Shown here in pieces: positions 13,982 to 26,775 of a stretch of 64,000 nt of DNA (position 1 is its first letter; each line of letters begins with the position of its first letter). The stretch comes from Nodosilinea foveolarum (GTDB taxonomy: Bacteria; Cyanobacteriota; Cyanobacteriia; Phormidesmidales; Phormidesmidaceae). Position numbers and translations under genes: made by a program. Location: the NCBI GenBank assembly GCA_003242035.1, contig QBMC01000002.1, forward strand, positions 1 to 64,000. The letters are read 5' to 3'. Below the pieces are notes generated by a model. The model saw only the letters and a program-made list of their open reading frames with translations. It searched no databases and was not told where the DNA came from.

Positions 13982-15310
13982 CTACTCCCGCGACTGAAGT
14001 ACGGGGGACTCCCCGGCTTCGGTCAGAGGTTTCAGCACTTCTGCTAATCTAGAAGTTCTTAGGCTCCAGATTCTCAGACGCCTTGGGCTGGTCAATTGCC
14101 CACTAGCCGGTTTGCACTGCATTCCGGTTACGTTTGCTTTCCTGCCGATATTCCAAGCACCATTGCAATCTGCATTGATCCGAGTTCCATCAGCGCTCTT
14201 ATACAGCCCGCGCTTTGGCTTAGTTCCAGACGGCTTCCATCCCTCGGGTTTTGCACCGAATACGGGAATTACGTCTAGGTCTAAAGCTGACGCTTTGGAC
14301 GTATAGCTTTCTTCCTGCGGGGTAAACTCAATCCCGTACAGCTCGCACAATTGGGAGATGCGCTTTTTGAGTTTGGCAGTCGGAATTTGAACAAACTTTT
14401 GATTGGTCTTGCGACCCATATTGGCTTTGTTTTTCTGGCCTTTATTCCAGCCAAAGACAACGACACCGATTTGATTAGCTACGCAGTAGTTCACGCCTTG
14501 GCGAGCAGCCTTGTTCACCGCATCCCGCATCTGTCGATTGCGCTTTGTCGTCAGCCGGTCGAGCAGGCGGCACCAGAAGTCTTGAGCTTTGTCGCGCTTA
14601 ATATTAGCTACCTGCTTGTTATAGAACTGGTTGACCGCCTTCAGTTGCTTGCCGTCAATGATGAAAGCTTCAGCGTCCGAAGGCGTACAGGTCAGCCAGT
14701 TATCAACCCCCTGGTCAATAGAAAGCGCCTTGTTTGGGTCTAGTTCTGGCTTTTCGGGCGCGTCAGCCGCCGACACCCAGACCGCGTCAAAGTACCCAGC
14801 ACGGGGAACGATCTGCAATTCCTTCACGGTTGCCCAGTCAAGATTAGATGGAAAGGGAATAAAGATTTCCCTCAGCCCAAACCACACTTTACAAGCTGTC
14901 CCCATTGCCACCCGAACGCCTTTATCTGTCAGCTTCAGCCATCGTTTAGGGTAGCTAAGCTGAAAGCGCCCACCCGACTTGCGATAGTTGGGCGCTTTCG
15001 GCTCGTCAGGTAGCTCACCTTGAAACCACAGCTTGCGCAGCTCTTTGAATCCCTTGAAGGCTTCGCCTACAGAGAAACAGGTTTGCTGCGCCGCCGAAGT
15101 GTAGAGCGCTTTCATATGAGGATTGCGCTTCATCTCAGTTGCTAGCCAAAATTTGTTGGCGTATTTCTTCTCCTTGAAATAGACCTGACGCGCTAGATAA
15201 GTTGTGCAGTTATAGAGGCTGTTGGACACTCTGCATAGAAACTCTAACGCCGCCGATAACGACGGGTCGGAAGGCAGTCTATTTACTTGTGCTGCAAACG
15301 TTTTAGCCAT
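13982..15310 (-). CDS. tnpB: TnpB, RNA-guided RuvC-like nuclease (IS605 OrfB family)
   Basis: Motifs ALSIDQGVDNW (D), TPQEESYTSKASALDLD (E), GTRINADCNGAWNI (D); start moved to MAKTFAAQVNRLP. Confidence 0.9.
   Translation of the reverse strand: MAKTFAAQVNRLPSDPSLSAALEFLCRVSNSLYNCTTYLARQVYFKEKKYANKFWLATEMKRNPHMKALYTSAAQQTCFSVGEAFKGFKELRKLWFQGELPDEPKAPNYRKSGGRFQLSYPKRWLKLTDKGVRVAMGTACKVWFGLREIFIPFPSNLDWATVKELQIVPRAGYFDAVWVSAADAPEKPELDPNKALSIDQGVDNWLTCTPSDAEAFIIDGKQLKAVNQFYNKQVANIKRDKAQDFWCRLLDRLTTKRNRQMRDAVNKAARQGVNYCVANQIGVVVFGWNKGQKNKANMGRKTNQKFVQIPTAKLKKRISQLCELYGIEFTPQEESYTSKASALDLDVIPVFGAKPEGWKPSGTKPKRGLYKSADGTRINADCNGAWNIGRKANVTGMQCKPASGQLTSPRRLRIWSLRTSRLAEVLKPLTEAGESPVLQSRE
13986..14008 (-). 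ncRNA. Right-end hairpin, probable 3' scaffold portion of a TnpB omega RNA
   Basis: TCCCG-CGACTGAAGTA-CGGGGGA stem-loop overlapping the 3' end of tnpB; omega RNA assignment is by analogy with characterised TnpB systems. Confidence 0.45.
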
Positions 15311-15364
15311 CCCCTTATTATAACTGTTATTGTGGATAAATACATAGTTATCAACAGTGAAGAT

Positions 15365-15769
15365 ATGAGAAAAAAGTCTGAAGGCTTCCGGCACGACGCG
15401 CACTCAGTCGGGCTGGCTACGGTTCATCTTGTCTTTGTTCCTAAGCGCCGAAAGCCTGTATTGAAAGGGCCGGTGAGAACCCGTTTGAATGAGATATTTC
15501 AGAGCGTTGCGATAGATAAGAAGTGGATCGTTCGCTCCGTTAAGATTGCCCCTGACCACGTTCATCTGCTAATTGAGTACGATTCCAAAACGTCTGTTGC
15601 AGAAGTGGCTAGAGCATTCAAGGGCCGGTCATCCCGTTACCTGCGTAAAGAGTTTCCTCACCTATTGAAATTACCTTCACTTTGGCCGCGTTCATATTTT
15701 TACGAGACGACCGGCAAAGTCAGTACGGCTAAGATAGAGGCGTATATTAATGACCCTCATCATTGGTAG
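15365..15769 (+). CDS. tnpA: IS200-like Y1 transposase TnpA
   Basis: VHLVFVPKRRKPVL, HUH motif DHVHLLIEYD, C-terminal Tyr in IEAYINDPHHW. Confidence 0.9.
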   Translation: MRKKSEGFRHDAHSVGLATVHLVFVPKRRKPVLKGPVRTRLNEIFQSVAIDKKWIVRSVKIAPDHVHLLIEYDSKTSVAEVARAFKGRSSRYLRKEFPHLLKLPSLWPRSYFYETTGKVSTAKIEAYINDPHHW

Positions 15770-15868: not shown

Positions 15869-15966
15869 GGGTTTCGGCTACGCTCAACCCACGGGTCAGG
15901 TGCCAATAACTTTGAGAATTGGCCCACTATGCCTTCCGCCTGGTGACTGAGCGTAGTCGAAGTCAC
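15869..15966. repeat. Paired interspersed repeats TTCGGCTACGCTCA / TGAGCGTAGTCGAA
   Basis: GGGTT-TCGGCTACGCTC-AACCC (15869-15890) and GTGACT-GAGCGTAGTCGA-AGTCAC (15943-15966) are related inverted copies, each forming its own hairpin. Confidence 0.7.
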
Positions 15967-16778
15967 AGCTCCTCGGTTTCTAGCTCCGGAATCGGCAAGG
16001 CTTCGCGTTTTTTCTCCATTGGCTCTACCTCCGGGGAGCGCGCTGGAATCAACTCCTTCTGGCGTTCTTCGGCCACTTCTTCGGTGCGCTCTTCTAGCTT
16101 CAGCGGTAGCTTCACCGCCTGCGGCACTTTCGCCTGCTTCGTCTTCGGCAGCGTTCGCTCCAAATCGCCTAGCGGTCTAGGAATCACCATCACCGAATTG
16201 AGTTCGCCAATGCGCTCGGCCTCGTTCATACCGGCTTCAACGGCGATCGCCACATTAGACAGCGACCCCTGAATAATAATCGTGCACAGCCCCTCACCAA
16301 TCGTCTCATGAGAAACCAGCGTCACCTCAGCCGACTTGGTCATCGCATCTGCCGCGCCCACCATTGCCGGAAATCCGCGCGTCTCTAGCAGACCAATCGC
16401 GCTGCCGCCCATCGACTGCCCTGCCCCTTCTAGCTCTTCCATCCGCACGCTGATCGGCAAAATCGCCTCTAGGTTTGCGCCCGGTCTAGGAATCATCGAA
16501 GACGAGACAAACTGACCAAACTGCTGAGCGGTCTTGGTCCCGGCATGAACCGCCATCCGCACATCCGCCACCCCGCCGCGCACAATCGCCGTACAGTGTC
16601 CGCCGCCGGTTTTTTCGTAGCCGACCAAAAACACGTTAGCAGACTTCATCATGGCATCCGCGACGCCAATAATCGCCGGAAAGCTCGTCGTCGAAACCAT
16701 CCCCAAGGCCGTATCGTGCATCCAGTTGCGACGAGTGGCCGTAAATGATTTGCGCTGAGGAGTGGCGTCTGATTGCAT
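15963..16778 (-). CDS. ccmO: Tandem-BMC-domain carboxysome shell protein CcmO
   Basis: Two BMC domains (FPAIIGVADAMMKSANVFLVGYEK...; FPAMVGAADAMTKSAEVTLVSHET...) plus a charged C-terminal tail; end of the ccm operon. Confidence 0.9.
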   Translation of the reverse strand: MQSDATPQRKSFTATRRNWMHDTALGMVSTTSFPAIIGVADAMMKSANVFLVGYEKTGGGHCTAIVRGGVADVRMAVHAGTKTAQQFGQFVSSSMIPRPGANLEAILPISVRMEELEGAGQSMGGSAIGLLETRGFPAMVGAADAMTKSAEVTLVSHETIGEGLCTIIIQGSLSNVAIAVEAGMNEAERIGELNSVMVIPRPLGDLERTLPKTKQAKVPQAVKLPLKLEERTEEVAEERQKELIPARSPEVEPMEKKREALPIPELETEEL

Positions 16779-16780
16779 AG

Positions 16781-17608
16781 CTATCGGTTGTCCTGGTTTC
16801 CGTTAAGTGACTGCCGATTGGGAAATAGCGTTGAGATTAGTTCGCTCACCTGATGGCGACCATACACTCTGTTATGAGAGGGTGCGCTAAGAGCAGAAGA
16901 CGGTTGGCTAGAGGGCTGAGCGCTATTTTCATCGCTGAGGTCATAGGTCTGATTTAATTGTACGCCATTCTTTGAGGGGTCGTAGCTAGTAGAACTGGCG
17001 CTGACGTCAATCGTGGGGATTTGAACAGGCTTGGGTTCAATCGGCCCCGGTTCTACAAAAGTGTTTTTGGGAAAGTCCTGGCTAGAAACGTTTGGCCCAA
17101 AGCTGCTTTGACTGAATCCGTTTTGGCTAAATTCGTTTTGGCTAAATTCGTTTTGACTTAGGCCGTTTTTATCTGAGCTATTGTCATGAAAACTGTTTGA
17201 ATTGAAACCTGCTGAGACGGCAGCCTTTTTCGGAGCCGCGCCCGACAGCGTGTTGGGCGGCAGCAGCGCATTGTCCTCTACTTGAGGATCCATCAGCGTA
17301 CTGCCCGGACTAATGCAGGCATTCGCACCCACCCGCCCGCTGCCGACAACCAGCACATTCGCGCCGAGCGTTGCACCGGACGAAATGGTCAACAGGCCCG
17401 CTTTGGACTGAACGCATACGCCGCCCGCTAAGCAAGCGCCGCTGCCGATGATAATACGACTACCGGGAAGCGCCTGCAAGACCACACCAGAGGCGATCGC
17501 GGCCGAAGCATCCACCGTGACATCACCCACTATGCAGTAGTGAGTATGGCTCACAGCCGTGGGTTCCCGCTGCGCCGCATTGAGTGTGGTGTCAGTAAGT
17601 GATTGCAT
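16781..17608 (-). CDS. ccmN: Carboxysome assembly protein CcmN
   Basis: N-terminal left-handed beta-helix repeats, variable linker, C-terminal encapsulation-like peptide NRVYGRHQVSELISTLFPNRQSL; position between ccmM and ccmO. Confidence 0.9.
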   Translation of the reverse strand: MQSLTDTTLNAAQREPTAVSHTHYCIVGDVTVDASAAIASGVVLQALPGSRIIIGSGACLAGGVCVQSKAGLLTISSGATLGANVLVVGSGRVGANACISPGSTLMDPQVEDNALLPPNTLSGAAPKKAAVSAGFNSNSFHDNSSDKNGLSQNEFSQNEFSQNGFSQSSFGPNVSSQDFPKNTFVEPGPIEPKPVQIPTIDVSASSTSYDPSKNGVQLNQTYDLSDENSAQPSSQPSSALSAPSHNRVYGRHQVSELISTLFPNRQSLNGNQDNR

Positions 17609-17651: not shown

Positions 17652-19664
17652 CTACGGACGTTGAATTGTCGCTTCAAGGACGCGCCGCTTAGCTTGAGGA
17701 TCGACGCCAATCAAACGCACATACTCACCTTGATGGCGGGCAAGCTGTTTGCCCAGCGCTGAGATGGCCTCTGCCGGACGACGCGCATCAATGGCTTCAC
17801 CGGTCTTCCAAATGCCGCTCCGGTAGCGCCGCTTATCCGCATACTCAACCGAGATTCGGTGGCCCTGGTTCACGAGCTGAGTGACCTGATCCATCACTTC
17901 GGATTCTATGCCACCGCCATTGCCGTTGCTACCAACACTCTGATTGCCGTAGCCACCGCCACTGCTATTGCCGTTGCTACCTGTACTTTGATTTCCGTAG
18001 CCACCGCCGCCACCGGCTTTTCTAGCACTGTATTCGTTGCCGTTATAGCTGCTAGGCTGGCCCCGAAAGGCAGGATCGTCATAGTGAGGAGGGTTGGCAT
18101 TAATCGGATCTTGGCCCGTGCCGGAAACGGTCTTATAGCTGGGCTGACCAGGGCGCTGAATCGTCTTTTCGACCACCCGACGCTTTGCTTTGGGATCGAC
18201 GCCGACTAGTCGCACGTAGTTGTCTTTATGATTGGCTAACTGCTTACCTAGCGCCGAAATAGCCTCTGCCGGACGACGAGCGTTAATAGCTTCACCCGTT
18301 TTCCAAATGCCGCTGCGATAGCGCCGCTTATCGGCGTACTCAATGGATATTTTGTGACCCTGGTTCACCAACTGCGTCACCTGATCCATGACCTCAGATG
18401 CCATACCGCCCGCATTTTTAGCGCTGTAGCCGTCGGCTCCGTAGCTGCTAGGCTGGCCGCGAAAAGCCGGGTCGTCGTAGTGAGGGGGGTTGGCATTAAT
18501 CGGGTCTCCACTAGAGCTGTCGCGACCCGCGTTACGCCCCGAACCAGATTGACTAGAACTAGAACCAGATTGCCCTGAACTGGACTTACCGGGCTTCTGA
18601 ATCGTCATCGAAGATCCGCGTGTCTTCATCTCGGGGTTAATGCCGAAGACCCGAACGTACTTGTCCGCATTTTGGCTCAAGAATCCCTGAAGCTGGCTGA
18701 TAGCCGCAGACTCACTGCTAGCCTTGATCGAAGGTGCGGTCTGCCAGATGCCGCTACGATAGCGCCGCTTGTCGGCAAACTCAATACCGATTTTGTTGCC
18801 GCTACGGAGGATCTGACTCACCGCTTGAGCCACTTCGTCACTGGCATTTCCGCCGTTTTGACTGTCGCCGCTCTGACTTCTGCCGCCCTGACTATAGCCA
18901 CCCGAGCTGCCAGCGCCGCCTGCTGGAGACTGACCAGACCCGTTCGCTTGAGGAACGGCGTGAGCCGAAATCTCTACGGGCTTACCGTCGGCTTTTTGAA
19001 TCGTAGTAGTCGCCATCCGGCTCTTTTCCTTTGGATCGATCCCAAACATGCGGATGTATTCACCGCTGTGCTCGTCGAGGCAATGCTCTAGTTTGGCAAA
19101 AACTTCTCTTTCGTTAGTAGTTTCAATCGGAGAGCACACTTTCCACACGTTGCTACGATAGTGACGCGGGCCAGCGTGTTCTGTGCCGATGAGGTAGCCA
19201 CTGCTCAGCAAATTTCGCACTTCTTGCGCAATACCAGGCGTGAGTCCACCGCCCTGGCCATTATGCTGCGAGGTGCCGTTCTGCGGGCCGTCGTTACGAT
19301 GCACAGAATAGCCGCTTTGCGTTGCCCGACTATCGCTACCATACGCGTCGCGAGGGGCTGCTGCATTGGCGGAGCCATCATTCACCTTGTCGCCCGGACG
19401 CCGTACGGTGGTCATACCCATTCTGCGCTTGGCTTTAGGGTCAATGCCAAACATCCGCACGTATTCGCCTTCGTGCTCTGCTAAACAGCGCTCTAGCCCA
19501 GAAAATACCGCTTGCTCGTTCTGCTCTCTAATCGGTGAGCAGGTCTCCCAAACGCCGCTTTGATAGTGACGTTTGTCGGCATGTTCCATCCCAATGCGAT
19601 AGCCCTGGCTCAGGTACTGGCGCACCTGCTGAACAATCTCGGGCGAGAGTCTCTGAGTCTGCAT
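17652..19664 (-). CDS. ccmM: Predicted short CcmM isoform (M35-like), internal start
   Basis: In-frame ATG at 19664 (MQTQRLSPEIVQQV) preceded by AAAGGAG with 5 nt spacing, immediately before SSUL module 1. Confidence 0.75.
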   Translation of the reverse strand: MQTQRLSPEIVQQVRQYLSQGYRIGMEHADKRHYQSGVWETCSPIREQNEQAVFSGLERCLAEHEGEYVRMFGIDPKAKRRMGMTTVRRPGDKVNDGSANAAAPRDAYGSDSRATQSGYSVHRNDGPQNGTSQHNGQGGGLTPGIAQEVRNLLSSGYLIGTEHAGPRHYRSNVWKVCSPIETTNEREVFAKLEHCLDEHSGEYIRMFGIDPKEKSRMATTTIQKADGKPVEISAHAVPQANGSGQSPAGGAGSSGGYSQGGRSQSGDSQNGGNASDEVAQAVSQILRSGNKIGIEFADKRRYRSGIWQTAPSIKASSESAAISQLQGFLSQNADKYVRVFGINPEMKTRGSSMTIQKPGKSSSGQSGSSSSQSGSGRNAGRDSSSGDPINANPPHYDDPAFRGQPSSYGADGYSAKNAGGMASEVMDQVTQLVNQGHKISIEYADKRRYRSGIWKTGEAINARRPAEAISALGKQLANHKDNYVRLVGVDPKAKRRVVEKTIQRPGQPSYKTVSGTGQDPINANPPHYDDPAFRGQPSSYNGNEYSARKAGGGGGYGNQSTGSNGNSSGGGYGNQSVGSNGNGGGIESEVMDQVTQLVNQGHRISVEYADKRRYRSGIWKTGEAIDARRPAEAISALGKQLARHQGEYVRLIGVDPQAKRRVLEATIQRP

Positions 19665-20387
19665 GTTTGCTCCTTTATTAGCGGTGGAATGAGTGGCGGC
19701 GGAATAGGCAGACGGGGCAGTCTGTCGAGCGGTGGCTTTGTGAATAGGCACCTGTCTAGATTTGGAGGTGTTGGCTCTAGAAATATTGGGCGATCGCCGA
19801 TTCTCATCTGGCAGAGTGCCAATGACTTCTCTAACAAATTCGGTGTCTTCGGGTCGAACGTTGGGGAGTTGATCGGCCTGATGCTGGCTGGTGATGATGC
19901 TGCCAGAGGGGATGCATTTACCCGGTGGTATTTCCACGTCCTGTACTAAGACATGCATCATGACGACGCAGCCGTCGCCCAGCCGAGCGTTATAGATTGT
20001 AGAGCGGAAGCCGATGAAGCAGTTTTTGCCGATGTAAGCGGGGCTGTGAATGAGAGATTTGTGAGCGATCGCACTCCCTGCCCCCACCCAAATAGAACAG
20101 GGCGACCCATCTTCACCCGTGACCTGTGGGCCAGCGGTGGCTTCTGCAATCACCCCCGGAAGTAGCTGAGCGCGATCGCTCACGACAATAGCAGCACCGG
20201 GTTCAGCCGTAACCGCTGTACCCGGTGCAATCATTGCGCCTGCGCCCACACTCACGCGACCCTCTACCAAAGAGAACTCATGCACATTCGCGGCGGCATC
20301 TACTGTGGGATACGCCCTAGAACTGGATTGAAAGCTGGGCCGCGAGCGAGCGATCGCCTGCGTCCGGCTAGATGTTTGGGCGACCAT
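17652..20387 (-). CDS. ccmM: Carboxysome scaffold CcmM: gamma-carbonic-anhydrase-like domain plus five RbcS-like (SSUL) modules
   Basis: N-terminal beta-helix domain and five copies of ...G(Y/H/N)xI(G/S)xE(H/Y/F)AxxRxYxSxxW...(Y)VR(M/L/V)(F/V/I)G(I/V)(D/N)P... Confidence 0.95.
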   Translation of the reverse strand: MVAQTSSRTQAIARSRPSFQSSSRAYPTVDAAANVHEFSLVEGRVSVGAGAMIAPGTAVTAEPGAAIVVSDRAQLLPGVIAEATAGPQVTGEDGSPCSIWVGAGSAIAHKSLIHSPAYIGKNCFIGFRSTIYNARLGDGCVVMMHVLVQDVEIPPGKCIPSGSIITSQHQADQLPNVRPEDTEFVREVIGTLPDENRRSPNISRANTSKSRQVPIHKATARQTAPSAYSAATHSTANKGANMQTQRLSPEIVQQVRQYLSQGYRIGMEHADKRHYQSGVWETCSPIREQNEQAVFSGLERCLAEHEGEYVRMFGIDPKAKRRMGMTTVRRPGDKVNDGSANAAAPRDAYGSDSRATQSGYSVHRNDGPQNGTSQHNGQGGGLTPGIAQEVRNLLSSGYLIGTEHAGPRHYRSNVWKVCSPIETTNEREVFAKLEHCLDEHSGEYIRMFGIDPKEKSRMATTTIQKADGKPVEISAHAVPQANGSGQSPAGGAGSSGGYSQGGRSQSGDSQNGGNASDEVAQAVSQILRSGNKIGIEFADKRRYRSGIWQTAPSIKASSESAAISQLQGFLSQNADKYVRVFGINPEMKTRGSSMTIQKPGKSSSGQSGSSSSQSGSGRNAGRDSSSGDPINANPPHYDDPAFRGQPSSYGADGYSAKNAGGMASEVMDQVTQLVNQGHKISIEYADKRRYRSGIWKTGEAINARRPAEAISALGKQLANHKDNYVRLVGVDPKAKRRVVEKTIQRPGQPSYKTVSGTGQDPINANPPHYDDPAFRGQPSSYNGNEYSARKAGGGGGYGNQSTGSNGNSSGGGYGNQSVGSNGNGGGIESEVMDQVTQLVNQGHRISVEYADKRRYRSGIWKTGEAIDARRPAEAISALGKQLARHQGEYVRLIGVDPQAKRRVLEATIQRP

Positions 20388-20404: not shown

Positions 20405-20707
20405 CTAATAACTATCTTCCCGCTTGTCGTAAAGCAGGCCATTATCGAGACTGACCGTATCGACAATAGCGATAACTGCTGCATCGACCGGTCTTTGATC
20501 GTAGCCTCGCTGCTGCCTAGCCCCGCTACCGCGACTAACGAGCACCCACTCACCCACGCCCGCTCCGACGGCATCGGCGGCGACTTCATAGTCATCTAGG
20601 AGGTCGCCCGATTCACTCACGAGCTGAATGAACAAAAGCTTGACCCCCATTAAGCTGTCGTCTTTAACGGTACTCACGACCGTTCCTCTGACTTTAGCTA
20701 AGCGCAT
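20405..20707 (-). CDS. ccmL: Carboxysome vertex pentamer protein CcmL
   Basis: MRLAKVRGTVVSTVKDDSLMGVKLLFIQ; GVGEWVLVSRGSGAR. Confidence 0.95.
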   Translation of the reverse strand: MRLAKVRGTVVSTVKDDSLMGVKLLFIQLVSESGDLLDDYEVAADAVGAGVGEWVLVSRGSGARQQRGYDQRPVDAAVIAIVDTVSLDNGLLYDKREDSY

Positions 20708-20727: not shown

Positions 20728-21066
20728 CTATCTACCATAGGGGCGAATGCCGCTAACGCTCTCGCGAAACTGCTCAACCGCCTCGGTATAGCGAATCGGC
20801 AGCACAAACTCCAGGTTCTCGTGCGGACGCGCGATGATGTGAGTCGAAAGCACCTGACCGCCGTTAACGCGCTTAACGTTCTCTACGCCAGCCGCGACAG
20901 AAGCCTGTACTTCAGAAACGTCGCCGCGAACGATCACGGTGACCCGGCCGCTGCCAATTTTCTCGTAGCCAACTAGCGTAACGCGAGCGGCTTTCACCAT
21001 CGCATCGGCTGCTTCTACCACTGCGGGGAAACCCAACGTTTCTACCATTCCTACTGCAATTGCCAT
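20728..21066 (-). CDS. ccmK1: Carboxysome shell hexamer CcmK (CcmK1-like)
   Basis: Single BMC domain; C-terminal extension [11 protein letters not shown]. Confidence 0.9.
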
Positions 21067-21153: not shown

Positions 21154-21462
21154 TTATGATCGGAACTGTTCGACTGCTTCGGTGTAGCGAATCGGCAGCA
21201 CAAACTCTAGGTTCTCATGCGGACGCGCAATAATGTGGGTCGAAAGCACTTCGCCTCCATTCACTCGCTTCACGGACTCAACGCCCGCAGAGACGGACGC
21301 TTGAACTTCAGAAACGTCGCCGCGAACGATCACGGTGACCCGGCCACTCCCAATTTTTTCGTAACCAACTAGGGTGACGCGAGCCGCCTTCACCATCGCA
21401 TCGGCCGCTTCCACCACTGCGGGGAACCCCTTTGTTTCAATCATTCCAACAGCAATAGGCAT
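21154..21462 (-). CDS. ccmK2: Carboxysome shell hexamer CcmK (CcmK2-like)
   Basis: Single BMC domain, 102 aa, only a few substitutions from the adjacent paralog. Confidence 0.9.
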
Positions 21463-21687
21463 TAATCGACATCTCCTTCTAATAAAAAGCCACTACAGAG
21501 TCGAATTTGTAATAGAAAAAGCTTCGTAATGACACCTCTTTTGTGCCCGCTGCTGCCTCACTTTTCAAGGGTGAGATCTCAGCCGACGGTGAACCAAAAT
21601 CCGCTGTTTCTACGCTTAAAAATTCTTTCGGGAAAGCCCTTAGTAACTCGTGCGTCATAACTCAGAATAAATTGGCGTCGTCCCTTT

Positions 21688-21755
21688 GACAATATAAGTG
21701 TCGATGATTGTCGCTAATAATGCGCATTATTAAACCTTATGACAATATCATTGCT
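21688..21755. promoter_or_regulatory. Palindrome cluster between divergent ccm and ndhF operons
   Basis: GACAAT-N13-ATTGTC (21688-21712); perfect 18-bp palindrome TAATAATGCGCATTATTA (21715-21732); a further GACAAT and CAAT-ATC-ATTG at about 21741-21752. Confidence 0.55.
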
Positions 21756-22107
21756 TTTTGTGCCAAAAAGTGAGGGTTGCTGAGCTAGGCAGTTTTCGCT
21801 GATCTAAGCTGATCTAATTGGTATTGGGGACGTCTAGGGAATAGATCGAGGTGGCAGGGATCGGAGGAGGTCGGGCGATCGCCCATGCGCCAAGTCTCGA
21901 TCTCCATGTTCGGGAGAATAAAAAATGTTCGAGGCGATCTATTGAGCAGCTTCGAGAGGAGCGCCCGCAATTCAGGTAATATAAAGCAATCGAATCCGCT
22001 TAATGGCGGTTGCTTACGGTTTAATTATTCGCTTCTAATCCATTTTTGCCAAACCGCTGAGGCAACTTTAGGCCATAGGTTGCGAAAGCTCTTTTGATGT
22101 ATTTGTA

Positions 22108-23940
22108 ATGCAGTTTTTGATTCAGTGGAGTTGGTTAATTCCAATGTATGGGCTGGTGGGTGCGCTGCTAGCTCTGCCTTGGGCAGCTAGAATCATCCGT
22201 CAAACCGGGCCTCGTCCGGCCATGTATATCAATGTTTTGATGACGGCGATCGCCTCACTACATGGCCTGCTACTCCTTCAGGTAATTTGGAATACAGGCC
22301 CGCAGCAGGTCAGCTTCGAGTGGCTAGACGTTGCCGGACTCACCCTTAGGCCGTCGTTGGATCTCTCAGCGGTCAATCTGATTTTTTTAGAGCTGACGGC
22401 GGGACTCAGTCTGCTAGCTCAAATCTACGCAATGGGCTACCTGGAAAAGGACTGGGCGCTGGCCAGATTCTTTGCTCTGATGGGCTTTTTTGAAGGGGCC
22501 ATCAGCGGCGTCATTCTCAGCAGCTCGCTGTTCACCAGCTACTTTTTGCTAGAGATGCTGACGCTTTCAACCTATCTAATCGTAGGCTTTTGGTATGCTC
22601 AGCCGCTGGTCGTTACCGCTGCTAGAGACGCCTTTTTAACCAAGCGGGTCGGCGATATTTTGCTGTTTATGGGGCTAGTGGCCCTGAGCACCTACGCCGG
22701 GTCGCTGAACTATGACGATTTAGCCGTTTGGGTAAAGGGCGCTGAAATTACGCCGTTAGCGGCAACGCTAACCAGCTTGGCGCTGATCGCTGGCCCGACC
22801 GGGAAATGTGCGCAGTTTCCGCTCCATCTCTGGCTAGATGAGGCGATGGAAGGCCCCAGTCCGGCCTCTATTTTGCGCAACTCAGTGGTGGTTACCTGTG
22901 GCGCTTATGTCTTGATTAAACTTCAGCCGGTGATTATCCTTTCCCCGTTTGCGCTGGATGCGCTCATTGCCATTGGCGTGACGACGGCAATTGGCGGCTC
23001 TTTTGTGGCACTGGCGCAAATCGATCTCAAGCGAGCATTTTCTTATTCTACGAGCGCCTATATCGGTCTAGTATTTATTGCAGTCGGCACTGCATGTCCA
23101 GGGGTTGCCCTGATGCTGCTTTTTACGCACGCAGTAGCCAAGGCGCTGATGTTTATGAGTGCAGGTGCCATTATTTACTCCTCGAACAATCAAGACCTGA
23201 CGGAGCTGGGCGGAATTTGGTCGCGGATGCCAGCGACCACCATTGCCTTTGTCACGGGCGCACTAGGTCTGGTGGGCTTACTGCCGTTTGGCTGTTTTTG
23301 GTCGTTCTGTCTGGGCATCGAGTTTTTGTGGGACGAGCATCCGCTTCTGGTGGGCGTCTTTTTGCTGGTTAACTTTCTCACGGCGCTGAATTTAGTTCGA
23401 GTCTTTCGACTGGTATTTTTGGGCCAGCCGCAGATGAAAACGCGGCGGACGCCGGAAGTCGGTTGGCTCATGGCTGTGCCGATGGTGTCGCTCTCGATTA
23501 TTGTGCTGCTGGTGCCGGTGATGATGTGGCGACTCTCGATGTTGCCGCCGACGGAATATTTCAATTTGGCGGCAGTGACGCTGCTGGTCGGTTCGGGGAT
23601 TTTGGGTGTGGGCTTAGGGTTTTATTTGCCCTTGAATAGAGCCTGGTCGCGCTCTAGCTTGGCACCGCTCCGCCGTCTGCAAGATTTGCTAGGCAATGAC
23701 TTCTATACCGGAAAGCTCTACGAAGCAACGGTAGTACGGCTAGTATCAGCGCTGTCTGCGGCGAGCAACTGGACAGATCGTTACGTGGTGGATGGGGCAG
23801 TGAATTTAGTAGGGGCTGCGTCTTTGCTGAGTGGCGAAGGGCTGAAGTACAGTGCATCGGGGCGATCGCAAAGCTACATCCTCACCATCGTGGTAGGCGT
23901 AGGGCTGCTAATTGCCATGACGACTTGGAAAATGTGGTAG
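22108..23940 (+). CDS. ndhF4: NDH-1 NdhF-type subunit of a CO2-uptake complex (NdhF4/NdhF3)
   Basis: NuoL-like membrane protein, GPTGKCAQFPLHLWLDEAMEGPSPASILRNSVVV; followed by ndhD and a CO2 hydration gene. The 4 versus 3 assignment rests on ccm linkage and no obvious cupS. Confidence 0.75.
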   Translation: MQFLIQWSWLIPMYGLVGALLALPWAARIIRQTGPRPAMYINVLMTAIASLHGLLLLQVIWNTGPQQVSFEWLDVAGLTLRPSLDLSAVNLIFLELTAGLSLLAQIYAMGYLEKDWALARFFALMGFFEGAISGVILSSSLFTSYFLLEMLTLSTYLIVGFWYAQPLVVTAARDAFLTKRVGDILLFMGLVALSTYAGSLNYDDLAVWVKGAEITPLAATLTSLALIAGPTGKCAQFPLHLWLDEAMEGPSPASILRNSVVVTCGAYVLIKLQPVIILSPFALDALIAIGVTTAIGGSFVALAQIDLKRAFSYSTSAYIGLVFIAVGTACPGVALMLLFTHAVAKALMFMSAGAIIYSSNNQDLTELGGIWSRMPATTIAFVTGALGLVGLLPFGCFWSFCLGIEFLWDEHPLLVGVFLLVNFLTALNLVRVFRLVFLGQPQMKTRRTPEVGWLMAVPMVSLSIIVLLVPVMMWRLSMLPPTEYFNLAAVTLLVGSGILGVGLGFYLPLNRAWSRSSLAPLRRLQDLLGNDFYTGKLYEATVVRLVSALSAASNWTDRYVVDGAVNLVGAASLLSGEGLKYSASGRSQSYILTIVVGVGLLIAMTTWKMW

Positions 23941-23950
23941 GGAAAAGACT

Positions 23951-25531
23951 TTGATACTGAGCGTACTTCTCATCATCCCGCTATTAGGCGCTTTGATAAT
24001 TAGCCTTTGGCCCGCCGAATTAGACACTAACCAAGCTCGACTCGGCGCATTAGTCACAATGGGCGTGAGCGTAGTTGGCTCGCTTTATCTAGTGTCTCAG
24101 TTTGATATTGCCAATCCGGGCTTTCAGTTTGTCGAGCGGTTTGAGTGGATTGATTCGCTAGGGCTAAGTTATGGACTGGCCGTCGATGGCATTGCCCTAC
24201 CGCTAGTGGTAATCAACAGCGTACTGAGCTTTGTCTCGGTTTATATCAGCGCCAACATTAAGCGGCCCCGACTTTACTATCCGCTGCTGCTCACGATTTC
24301 GGCAGCGGTTACCGGTGCGTTTGCCGCCCAAAACTTACTGCTGTTTTTCCTGTTTTACGAGCTAGAGCTGATTCCGCTGTATCTGCTGATTGCTATCTGG
24401 GGCGGGGCGCGGCGTGGATATGCGGCCACCAAGTTCCTAATTTACACCGCGTTCTCTGGAATTTTGATACTGGGCGCTTTTTTAGGTCTGGTATTTTTAT
24501 CGGGTTCGAACAGCTTCGATTACAATCCGGCCTTAGCGCAGGGGTTAACGTTGGCCCAGCAGACGGTGCTGATGGGCGCACTGCTCGTTGGCTTTGGTAT
24601 TAAAATTCCGTTGGTGCCTTTCCATACTTGGTTGCCAGATGCTCACGTTGAAGCCTCTACGCCGATTTCGGTGCTGCTAGCGGGCGTGTTGCTAAAGCTG
24701 GGCACTTACGGCATTTTGAGGTTTTGCGTGGAGTTGTTCCCGACGGCATGGCTAGATCTTTCGCCTTGGCTCGCTTGGTGGGCGGTGGTGAGCGTGCTGT
24801 ATGGATCTTTTGCGGCGATCGCCCAAACCGACATGAAAAAAATGGTGGCCTACAGCTCCGTAGGACACATGGGCTACATTTTGCTAGCCGCTGCTGCCGC
24901 TACGCCGCTGAGTATGCTGGGCGCAGTGCTGCAAATGATCAGCCACGGACTGATTTCAGCCCTGATGTTTTTGCTGGTGGGCGTGGTCTACAAAAAGACC
25001 GGCACTCGCGATCTCACGATTTTAAGGGGGCTGCTTGCGCCCGAGCGGGGCCTGCCCTTTATCGGTTCGCTAATGGTATTAGGGGCGATGGCGAGCGCTG
25101 GCATTCCGGGCATGGTGGGCTTTATCTCGGAGTTCATTGTGTTTCGCGGTAGCTTCGAGCGCTATGTGCCGCAGACGCTGCTCTGCATGGTCGGCTCGGG
25201 GCTAACAGCGGTATACTTTTTGCTAATGATTAACCGGGTGTTCTTTGGTCGGCTAAGCGTAACGCCTCCTAAGTTTGGTGAGACGATAGATACGCTGATT
25301 TCGGGGGTTAAATGGCGCGATCGCATCCCGGCTTTAGTGCTGGTGTTGCTGATCTTTGCCTTTGGCCTTCAGCCCGAATGGATGACCCGATGGACAGAAG
25401 CCACAACCACCGCATTTTTTCCCACGGCTCTCACGGCTAGGACTTCAGCGATACCCCCATTTAAAGCAGCCTCCAGCGTTGATTTCAGCGCCCCGCTGCC
25501 AACCGATCCCTCAGTTCATCTCACCTCCTAA
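23951..25531 (+). CDS. ndhD4: NDH-1 NdhD-type subunit (NdhD4/NdhD3)
   Basis: NuoM-like; LVPFHTWLPDAHVEASTPISVLLAGVLLKLGTYG. Confidence 0.8.
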   Translation: MILSVLLIIPLLGALIISLWPAELDTNQARLGALVTMGVSVVGSLYLVSQFDIANPGFQFVERFEWIDSLGLSYGLAVDGIALPLVVINSVLSFVSVYISANIKRPRLYYPLLLTISAAVTGAFAAQNLLLFFLFYELELIPLYLLIAIWGGARRGYAATKFLIYTAFSGILILGAFLGLVFLSGSNSFDYNPALAQGLTLAQQTVLMGALLVGFGIKIPLVPFHTWLPDAHVEASTPISVLLAGVLLKLGTYGILRFCVELFPTAWLDLSPWLAWWAVVSVLYGSFAAIAQTDMKKMVAYSSVGHMGYILLAAAAATPLSMLGAVLQMISHGLISALMFLLVGVVYKKTGTRDLTILRGLLAPERGLPFIGSLMVLGAMASAGIPGMVGFISEFIVFRGSFERYVPQTLLCMVGSGLTAVYFLLMINRVFFGRLSVTPPKFGETIDTLISGVKWRDRIPALVLVLLIFAFGLQPEWMTRWTEATTTAFFPTALTARTSAIPPFKAASSVDFSAPLPTDPSVHLTS

Positions 25532-25590: not shown

Positions 25591-26775
25591 ATGACCTACT
25601 CCTCTGTCGCCATGCAGCTCCAGCCTGTCCCCATCTATTCGCCCGCCGAGTATATTAGCCGTTTGCTCAGTGGCGGCACCCTACTGCCCGACAATTTAGA
25701 AAACCTCAAAGAGGTGGTGGGCGTACTCGATGCCTATAGCGTAGTGCTCGATGCCTATTCCAAGAATTTGATCTACATTGCCGAAAGTCAGTTCCTGGTG
25801 CTGTTCCCTATTTTTAAATACTTCAACGGCAAAGTCACCCCTGAGCGCATTGTCAAGCATCTCTGGCACGACCGCATTAATTACGAATACGCCGAATATG
25901 TTATGCGGACGATGATGTGGCACGGCGGCGGCGGTCTGGATACGTATTTGGATTCAGAGGAATTTTGGGCCTGCTGCGCCCCAGCGGTACAGGCCAAAAC
26001 TCGGTTTAATCCCCTGTTAATGACGCTCGGACGACTTTTTCCCGACTACCTGGCAGAACAGGTGCGGCAGTTGGCCTATTATTCTGGATTAGGTCAGTTT
26101 TGGCGCGTAATGAGCGATATTTTTCAGCAGTTGGCTGAGGCGTATGACGCAGGCAAAATCGACGCAATTCCGCAGGTGGTTGAACTGATTAAGCAAGGGC
26201 TGGTTGACAATGCGACTCGGCCTATTACCTACAGCGTTAAAGTACGCGGCACGATTTACGACATTATTCCGGAGTCGGTAGGGATAACTTTTTTATCTGA
26301 TACAGCAGTGCCTTATGTGGAATCTATTTTCATTCGAGGTGCGCCCTTTTTTGGCACCGTTTCTTACAACGCGCAGGCGCATCAGGTGCCGATTGATCAG
26401 GCTCAGTTTGGCTATGGCGCACTGTTTGCCGATCCGCTGCCGATTGGCGGCGCGGGGATTCCGCCTACGCTGCTAATGCAAGACATGCGCCACTATGTGC
26501 CGGACTACCTCAGGGCTATCTATCAAGACACCAAGCGCGGCCAGGATGACATTCGTGTTCAGCTTTCGCAGAGCTTTCAAAAGTCAATGTTCTGCGTGAC
26601 CGAAGCTGCCGTGCGTGGGATGATGCCCTACCCCGCCGATACGGACGATCCTAAAGAGCAGGTGCTAAACCGCGATTATCTCAGCGGCTGGATGAAGCGA
26701 CTCTCCGAATCGAGGCTAGATGTGGTGCAAAGGGAAGGTCGGCAGCAGTCTCAAACGCCAGTGACCCCGCATTAG
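25591..26775 (+). CDS. CO2 hydration protein (ChpX/CupB or ChpY/CupA family)
   Basis: NLENLKEVVGVLDAYSVVLDAYSKNLIYIAESQFL, HLWHDRINYEYAEYVMRTMMWHGGGGLDTYL; downstream of ndhF/ndhD. Confidence 0.85.
   Translation: MTYSSVAMQLQPVPIYSPAEYISRLLSGGTLLPDNLENLKEVVGVLDAYSVVLDAYSKNLIYIAESQFLVLFPIFKYFNGKVTPERIVKHLWHDRINYEYAEYVMRTMMWHGGGGLDTYLDSEEFWACCAPAVQAKTRFNPLLMTLGRLFPDYLAEQVRQLAYYSGLGQFWRVMSDIFQQLAEAYDAGKIDAIPQVVELIKQGLVDNATRPITYSVKVRGTIYDIIPESVGITFLSDTAVPYVESIFIRGAPFFGTVSYNAQAHQVPIDQAQFGYGALFADPLPIGGAGIPPTLLMQDMRHYVPDYLRAIYQDTKRGQDDIRVQLSQSFQKSMFCVTEAAVRGMMPYPADTDDPKEQVLNRDYLSGWMKRLSESRLDVVQREGRQQSQTPVTPH

Follow-up and report, generated by a model that had tools for sequence, protein, structure and literature searches.

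What controls transcription in the 645-bp spacer between two divergent CCM operons of Nodosilinea foveolarum, and does one regulator serve both? The window, i.e. the whole stretch of DNA that was analysed (64,000 nucleotides, positions 1 to 64,000 of contig QBMC01000002.1), carries a minus-strand operon, ccmK-ccmK-ccmL-ccmM-ccmN-ccmO, and a plus-strand operon, ndhF3-ndhD3-chpY/cupA. A first-pass annotation had described two CCM operons transcribed away from each other, and this was confirmed, with gene identities from family-profile matches:

15963-16778, minus strand: ccmO (NF053792, above cut-off)
16781-17608, minus strand: ccmN (NF053793, above cut-off)
17652-20387, minus strand: ccmM, with five RbcS-like stretches (NF053794, PF00101)
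20405-20707, minus strand: ccmL (NF053795, above cut-off)
20728-21066, minus strand: second copy of ccmK (BMC family matches)
21154-21462, minus strand: ccmK, BMC shell protein, first gene of the operon (PF00936)
22108-23940, plus strand: ndhF3, of the divergent operon (TIGR01960)
23951-25531, plus strand: ndhD3 (NF005060)
25591-26775, plus strand: chpY/cupA, CO2 hydration protein (TIGR01964)

An IS200/IS605-type pair at 13982-15769, consisting of a TnpB-like gene (minus strand) and a Y1 transposase (plus strand), adjoins the ccmO end of the operon.

The annotation had centred a putative regulatory site on an 18-bp palindrome and had proposed phylogenetic footprinting as a check. When this was run, 21664-21741 proved strongly conserved and the palindrome as such did not. 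The spacer was searched in 58 relatives and matched in 19; matches inside the genus extended at most from 21573 to 21773, and those outside the genus were all confined to about 21659-21746. The deeply conserved part is a 78-bp module on the minus strand (21664-21741; consensus of aligned sites TTTGACAATATAAGYCTCAATGATTGTYGCTAATATTAAGCATTATTAAAACTAATG), which reads, in minus-strand order, ATAAG-N5-ATAAT (IR1), a 7-bp gap, ATTAG-N5-ATCAT-N5-CTTAT, one base, TTGTCA, 17 bp and TATTCT. Judged by its sequence conservation, the block is a real promoter-operator of the carboxysome operon, and one of a known kind. Its predicted parts are as follows:

21664-21669, minus strand: -10 box TATTCT of the ccmK promoter (TATNCT conserved in 50 elements that were not selected for the -10)
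21687-21692, minus strand: -35 box TTGTCA of the ccmK promoter (consensus scan with a 17-bp spacer; TTGNCA in homologues)
21694-21708, minus strand: IR3, putative activation-type LysR box ATCAT-N5-CTTAT, T21695-N11-A21707 (T/A invariant in 52/52 promoters)
21704-21718, minus strand: IR2, putative activation-type LysR box ATTAG-N5-ATCAT, T21705-N11-A21717 (T/A invariant in 52/52 promoters)
21726-21740, minus strand: IR1, putative recognition-type LysR box ATAAG-N5-ATAAT, T21727-N11-A21739 (T/A invariant in 50/50 elements and 52/52 promoters)

IR2 starts 22 bp from IR1. IR3 starts 10 bp from IR2, overlaps it by one half-site (ATCAT, common to both) and abuts the -35 box. From the -10 box, the ccmK transcription start site (TSS) is predicted near 21656-21658. 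A search of Rfam at the site returned no match.

Two sets of sequences were used to assess conservation. The first comprised 50 distinct elements chosen by the pattern CAAYATAA-N6-ATGAT; as the pattern fixes 21690-21697 and 21704-21708, invariance at those bases is built in. Conserved half-sites in this set start at 21694, 21704, 21714, 21726 and 21736. The selection pattern fixes the T of IR2 and leaves its A unconstrained (invariant in 50/50), and it also fixes IR3, whose invariance is thus read from the second set only. The latter consisted of 52 aligned ccmK promoters, Nostocales included, anchored on the -35 and -10 boxes only; the TTG of the -35 served as anchor, the anchor pattern partly constrains 21695 of IR3, and 10 of 69 ccmK upstream regions were missed by it. 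Across all 52 promoters, Nostocales included, T21727/A21739, T21705/A21717 and T21695/A21707 (plus-strand coordinates) were invariant. N11 was the commonest repeated spacing between invariant T and A, in a count that ended just before the third pair; that pair was seen in the 52-promoter alignment.

The palindrome and the two GACAAT strings, which had first drawn attention to the spacer, are all present where they had been placed, and the palindrome is exact and fully self-complementary over its 18 bp. Set against the conserved block, they read as follows:

21688-21712, no strand assigned: GACAAT-N13-ATTGTC, the -35 box overlapping IR2/IR3 half-sites (perfect in 3/50 homologous elements)
21715-21732, no strand assigned: 18-bp palindrome TAATAATGCGCATTATTA, a composite of the IR2 right half-site and the IR1 left half (perfect in the window genome only)
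21741-21753, plus strand: second GACAAT box GACAATATCATTG (unconserved within the genus)

TAATAATGCGCATTATTA is unique within the 64-kb window, even when 3 mismatches are allowed. As chance alone predicts about 0.25 perfect 18-bp palindromes per 64 kb and about 0.003 per 645-bp spacer, finding a single one in the window is nothing unusual; that it falls in this spacer is surprising only post hoc. The window copy was the only perfect palindrome among the 52 aligned ccmK promoters and also among the 50 elements, a set that partly overlaps the 52. On average, 4.2 of the 9 arm pairs were complementary, compared to 3.8 expected from column composition (n = 52), and the palindrome centre (21719-21725) is variable DNA in the 50 elements. 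By this conservation pattern, the palindrome is a chance feature of one genome and not a functional unit, and it was ruled out as an operator, being unconserved among the 52 promoters. The GACAAT boxes were likewise ruled out as a repeat family: the first consists of the -35 box together with half-sites, and the second is unconserved. The second box belongs to a 19-bp direct repeat (79% identity, spacing 53 bp), and the 13-mer GACAATATCATTG was not enriched in the 64-kb window at up to 2 mismatches (5 occurrences, 3.2 expected). Palindrome and boxes are incidental readings of the promoter-operator.

The distribution of the block across genomes bears on whether it serves one operon or two. Of 242 cyanobacterial genomes, 72 contained the pattern ATNAT-N5-YTTATRTTGNCA-N15-19-TATNCT, which covers the promoter-proximal part (IR3, -35 and -10), each of them a single time; its reversed control matched in none. 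The other 170 genomes held no exact match to this strict pattern, which undercounts, since 10 of the 69 ccmK upstream regions likewise escaped the -35/-10 anchor; the module may also be absent from some genomes of the class. The 30 matches retrieved for inspection all lay 94-348 bp upstream of a ccmK sharing 90-98% identity with the window ccmK, and six of these had no ndhF3 within 1.5 kb, with the element still at ccmK. In one locus (L120), a gyrase-like gene takes the place of ndhF3, and both the element and ccmK are retained. At nearly all loci the element lay 119-343 bp from ccmK, with a single locus at 55 bp, whereas its distance to ndhF3 ranged from 299 to 1889 bp, so that the element shows no fixed association with both genes.

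The annotation had suggested possible joint control of the two operons by a regulator binding at this site, and a single palindrome-centred operator governing the divergent pair would be in keeping with the widespread divergent ccmK/ndhF3 layout and with Synechocystis, where both operons are RbcR targets (PMC13249358). Against it stand the unconserved palindrome, the persistence of the element at ccmK where ndhF3 is elsewhere, and the end of family-wide conservation at about 21741, with no conserved element found among genus members in the sequence before ndhF3. Moreover, Nostocales ndhF3 has a separate dyad of its own: ATAA-N7-TTAT, similar to the rbcL box, was seen at about -250 upstream of ndhF3 (loci such as L043, L055 and L060), so that in these loci an RbcR/PacR site separate from that of ccmK may serve ndhF3. 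The shared operator is accordingly the least credible of the alternatives considered here, and control of ndhF3 from the 21664-21741 element is not supported by these comparisons. A weak candidate on the ndhF3 side of the spacer lies at 21981-21995 (ATAAAGCAATCGAAT), with a better copy in L083.

As for the kind of operator, the annotation's claim of a CCM regulatory element is borne out by the conserved block, whose three T-N11-A boxes have the anatomy of a LysR-type operator: IR1 is an imperfect T-N11-A dyad upstream of the promoter, and IR2 and IR3 lie as activation boxes between it and the -35. In the published layout of LysR recognition and activation sites (RBS/ABS) and its sliding-dimer model, a recognition site is combined with two alternative activation sites at the -35 (PMC12609908, PMC8407307). 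The ccmK block resembles this classical layout in its T-N11-A boxes, its distal recognition site, its pair of alternative proximal sites that overlap or adjoin the -35, and its footprint of about 50 bp. It differs in that IR2 and IR3 of the window, offset by exactly 10 bp, have one half-site in common, and ligand, tetramer and switching are putative here.

On this model, a sigma-70-type promoter on the minus strand (TTGTCA-N17-TATTCT) would drive ccmK(K)LMN(O), with IR1 (21726-21740), centred at about -76, as the proposed recognition site and the overlapping IR2 and IR3 (21704-21718 and 21694-21708), lying against the -35, as proposed activation sites. IR1 would serve as the anchor of a LysR tetramer, whose second dimer would shift between IR2 and IR3 with inorganic-carbon status; in low CO2, the shift would expose the -35 and recruit RNA polymerase.

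The A/T-rich half-sites recur every 10, 10, 12 and 10 bp, a phasing that could also mark an UP element or intrinsically curved DNA boosting a constitutive ccmK promoter. However, curvature alone would not predict single invariant T and A at N11 with variable bases between them, nor the variable gap between IR1 and IR2, and an IR1-like dyad is also found at rbcL, which makes this explanation very improbable.

The reading that we consider probable is that 21664-21741 is the ccmK(K)LMN(O) promoter-operator of classical LysR type, likely bound by RbcR/PacR and probably active in low CO2. The annotation had named CmpR and NdhR/CcmR as known LysR-type CCM regulators; the three T-N11-A boxes agree with the LysR type, but neither of these two is the best fit, the NdhR motif being absent from the spacer. 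The genome encodes two relevant LysR proteins, a full-length RbcR-like one (L160) and an NdhR-like one (L162). The RbcR identity of L160 is putative, no curated model naming it; the best solved relative of L162 is 5y2v (E = 1.3e-138).

Several observations link the block to RbcR. The published RbcR consensus is ATTA(G/A)-N5-(C/T)TAAT, and activation occurs from a position roughly 90 nt ahead of the TSS (PMC13249358). In Synechocystis, rbcLXS and ccmK2K1LMN are placed in the RbcR regulon and outside the NdhR, CmpR and cyAbrB2 regulons (PMC12014562). A dyad ATWA-N7-TWAT was present in 32 of 43 rbcL upstream regions of the same group, compared to 3.7 expected and at most 10 across 50 shuffles, and many of these rbcL dyads have a T-rich spacer that is oriented the same way relative to the gene. 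The rbcL upstream alignment was readable in its genus-only version, the MAFFT alignment of all sequences being too gappy. A matrix trained on rbcL picked IR1 as its top match in the spacer (score 10.0, next site 2.0); as IR1 was its best match in only 11 of 52 ccmK promoters, the rbcL-IR1 link is moderate. Conversely, a search of rbcL with the full ccmK operator matrix gave no convincing site, only its IR1 part matching there, and no clear dyad was seen in the region upstream of the genome's rbcR-like gene.

Agreement with the RbcR consensus was 8/10 for both IR1 and IR2 in the window and 9/10 for the family IR1 consensus. A window scan at up to 2 mismatches showed no enrichment (74 matches, 68 expected), and since 2-mismatch matches are thus at chance level, a consensus match alone proves nothing. 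The block is like the operators described for cyanobacterial RbcR (PacR/Ycf30) in its target ccmK2K1LMN, its dyad type ATTA(R)-N5-(Y)TAAT, its upstream activating position and the similar dyad at rbcL, and unlike them in the 2 of 10 consensus positions at which window IR1 departs and in its overlapping pair of activation boxes against the -35, which the available parts of these two sources do not describe (PMC13249358, PMC12014562). The likeness is one of sequence, and binding at ccmK is putative. Because rbcL promoters share a similar dyad and the published RbcR regulon includes ccmK2K1LMN, the regulator of the ccmK block is likely RbcR/PacR.

A LysR-type operator at ccmK bound instead by an NdhR/CmpR-type regulator appears unlikely. 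Such a binder would be plausible in that T-N11-A-like sites are recognised by every CbbR-type LysR protein, that the genome encodes an NdhR-like protein, and that IR1 of Nostocales (TTAAG-N5-TTAAA) fits the CmpR motif TTA-N7/8-TAA. Yet the NdhR motif ATAG-N8-CTAT is missing from the 645-bp spacer at up to 1 mismatch, although it is present at ndhR, the published ccmK2K1LMN lies outside both the NdhR and the CmpR regulons (PMC12014562), and the rbcL dyad resembles IR1. An NdhR site in the spacer was ruled out by the absence of ATAG-N8-CTAT, so that an NdhR/CcmR operator shares with the block only the LysR family and its association with CCM genes. The CmpR motif is absent from window IR1 (ATTATTAAACCTTAT), which differs in this from the Nostocales IR1; the LysR family is in common, and ccmK is not assigned to the CmpR regulon in PMC12014562. 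An exact NdhR motif (ATAGACTTTCTTCTAT) was observed at -73 of ndhR itself (L162), as expected for autoregulation.

The block provides base-level coordinates, with mutable invariant bases, for what would be the switch controlling the main beta-carboxysome operon, one that belongs to ccmK and is not common to the neighbouring CO2-uptake operon. RbcR control of carboxysome synthesis thereby becomes directly testable in many cyanobacteria, and the coordinates are relevant to the engineering of carboxysome expression.

Downstream of the promoter, a conserved motif of the ccmK 5'-leader, roughly ATGRGC-N-TYCCCGTCAAAATTTT, lies about 35-55 nt past the -10 box in L018, L025, L034, L037, L041, L049, L066 and others. 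The window carries it in degenerate form:

21618-21641, minus strand: degenerate version of the leader motif (other cyanobacteria have a conserved form in their ccmK leaders)

In many species a reading of the motif as a short upstream ORF is possible, but a 1-nt insertion in L017, L020 and L023 disrupts its frame, which suggests an RNA motif. Searched against Rfam, it gave no match. A more far-reaching reading would make the ccmK module hard-wired, with fixed geometry across many cyanobacterial families, its half-site-sharing LysR boxes forming a two-position inorganic-carbon switch and the leader motif contributing a separate, RNA-level layer of control over carboxysome assembly; taken as a whole, it appears doubtful. 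The leader motif is often preceded by a small hairpin, GCTCAAGATGAGC.
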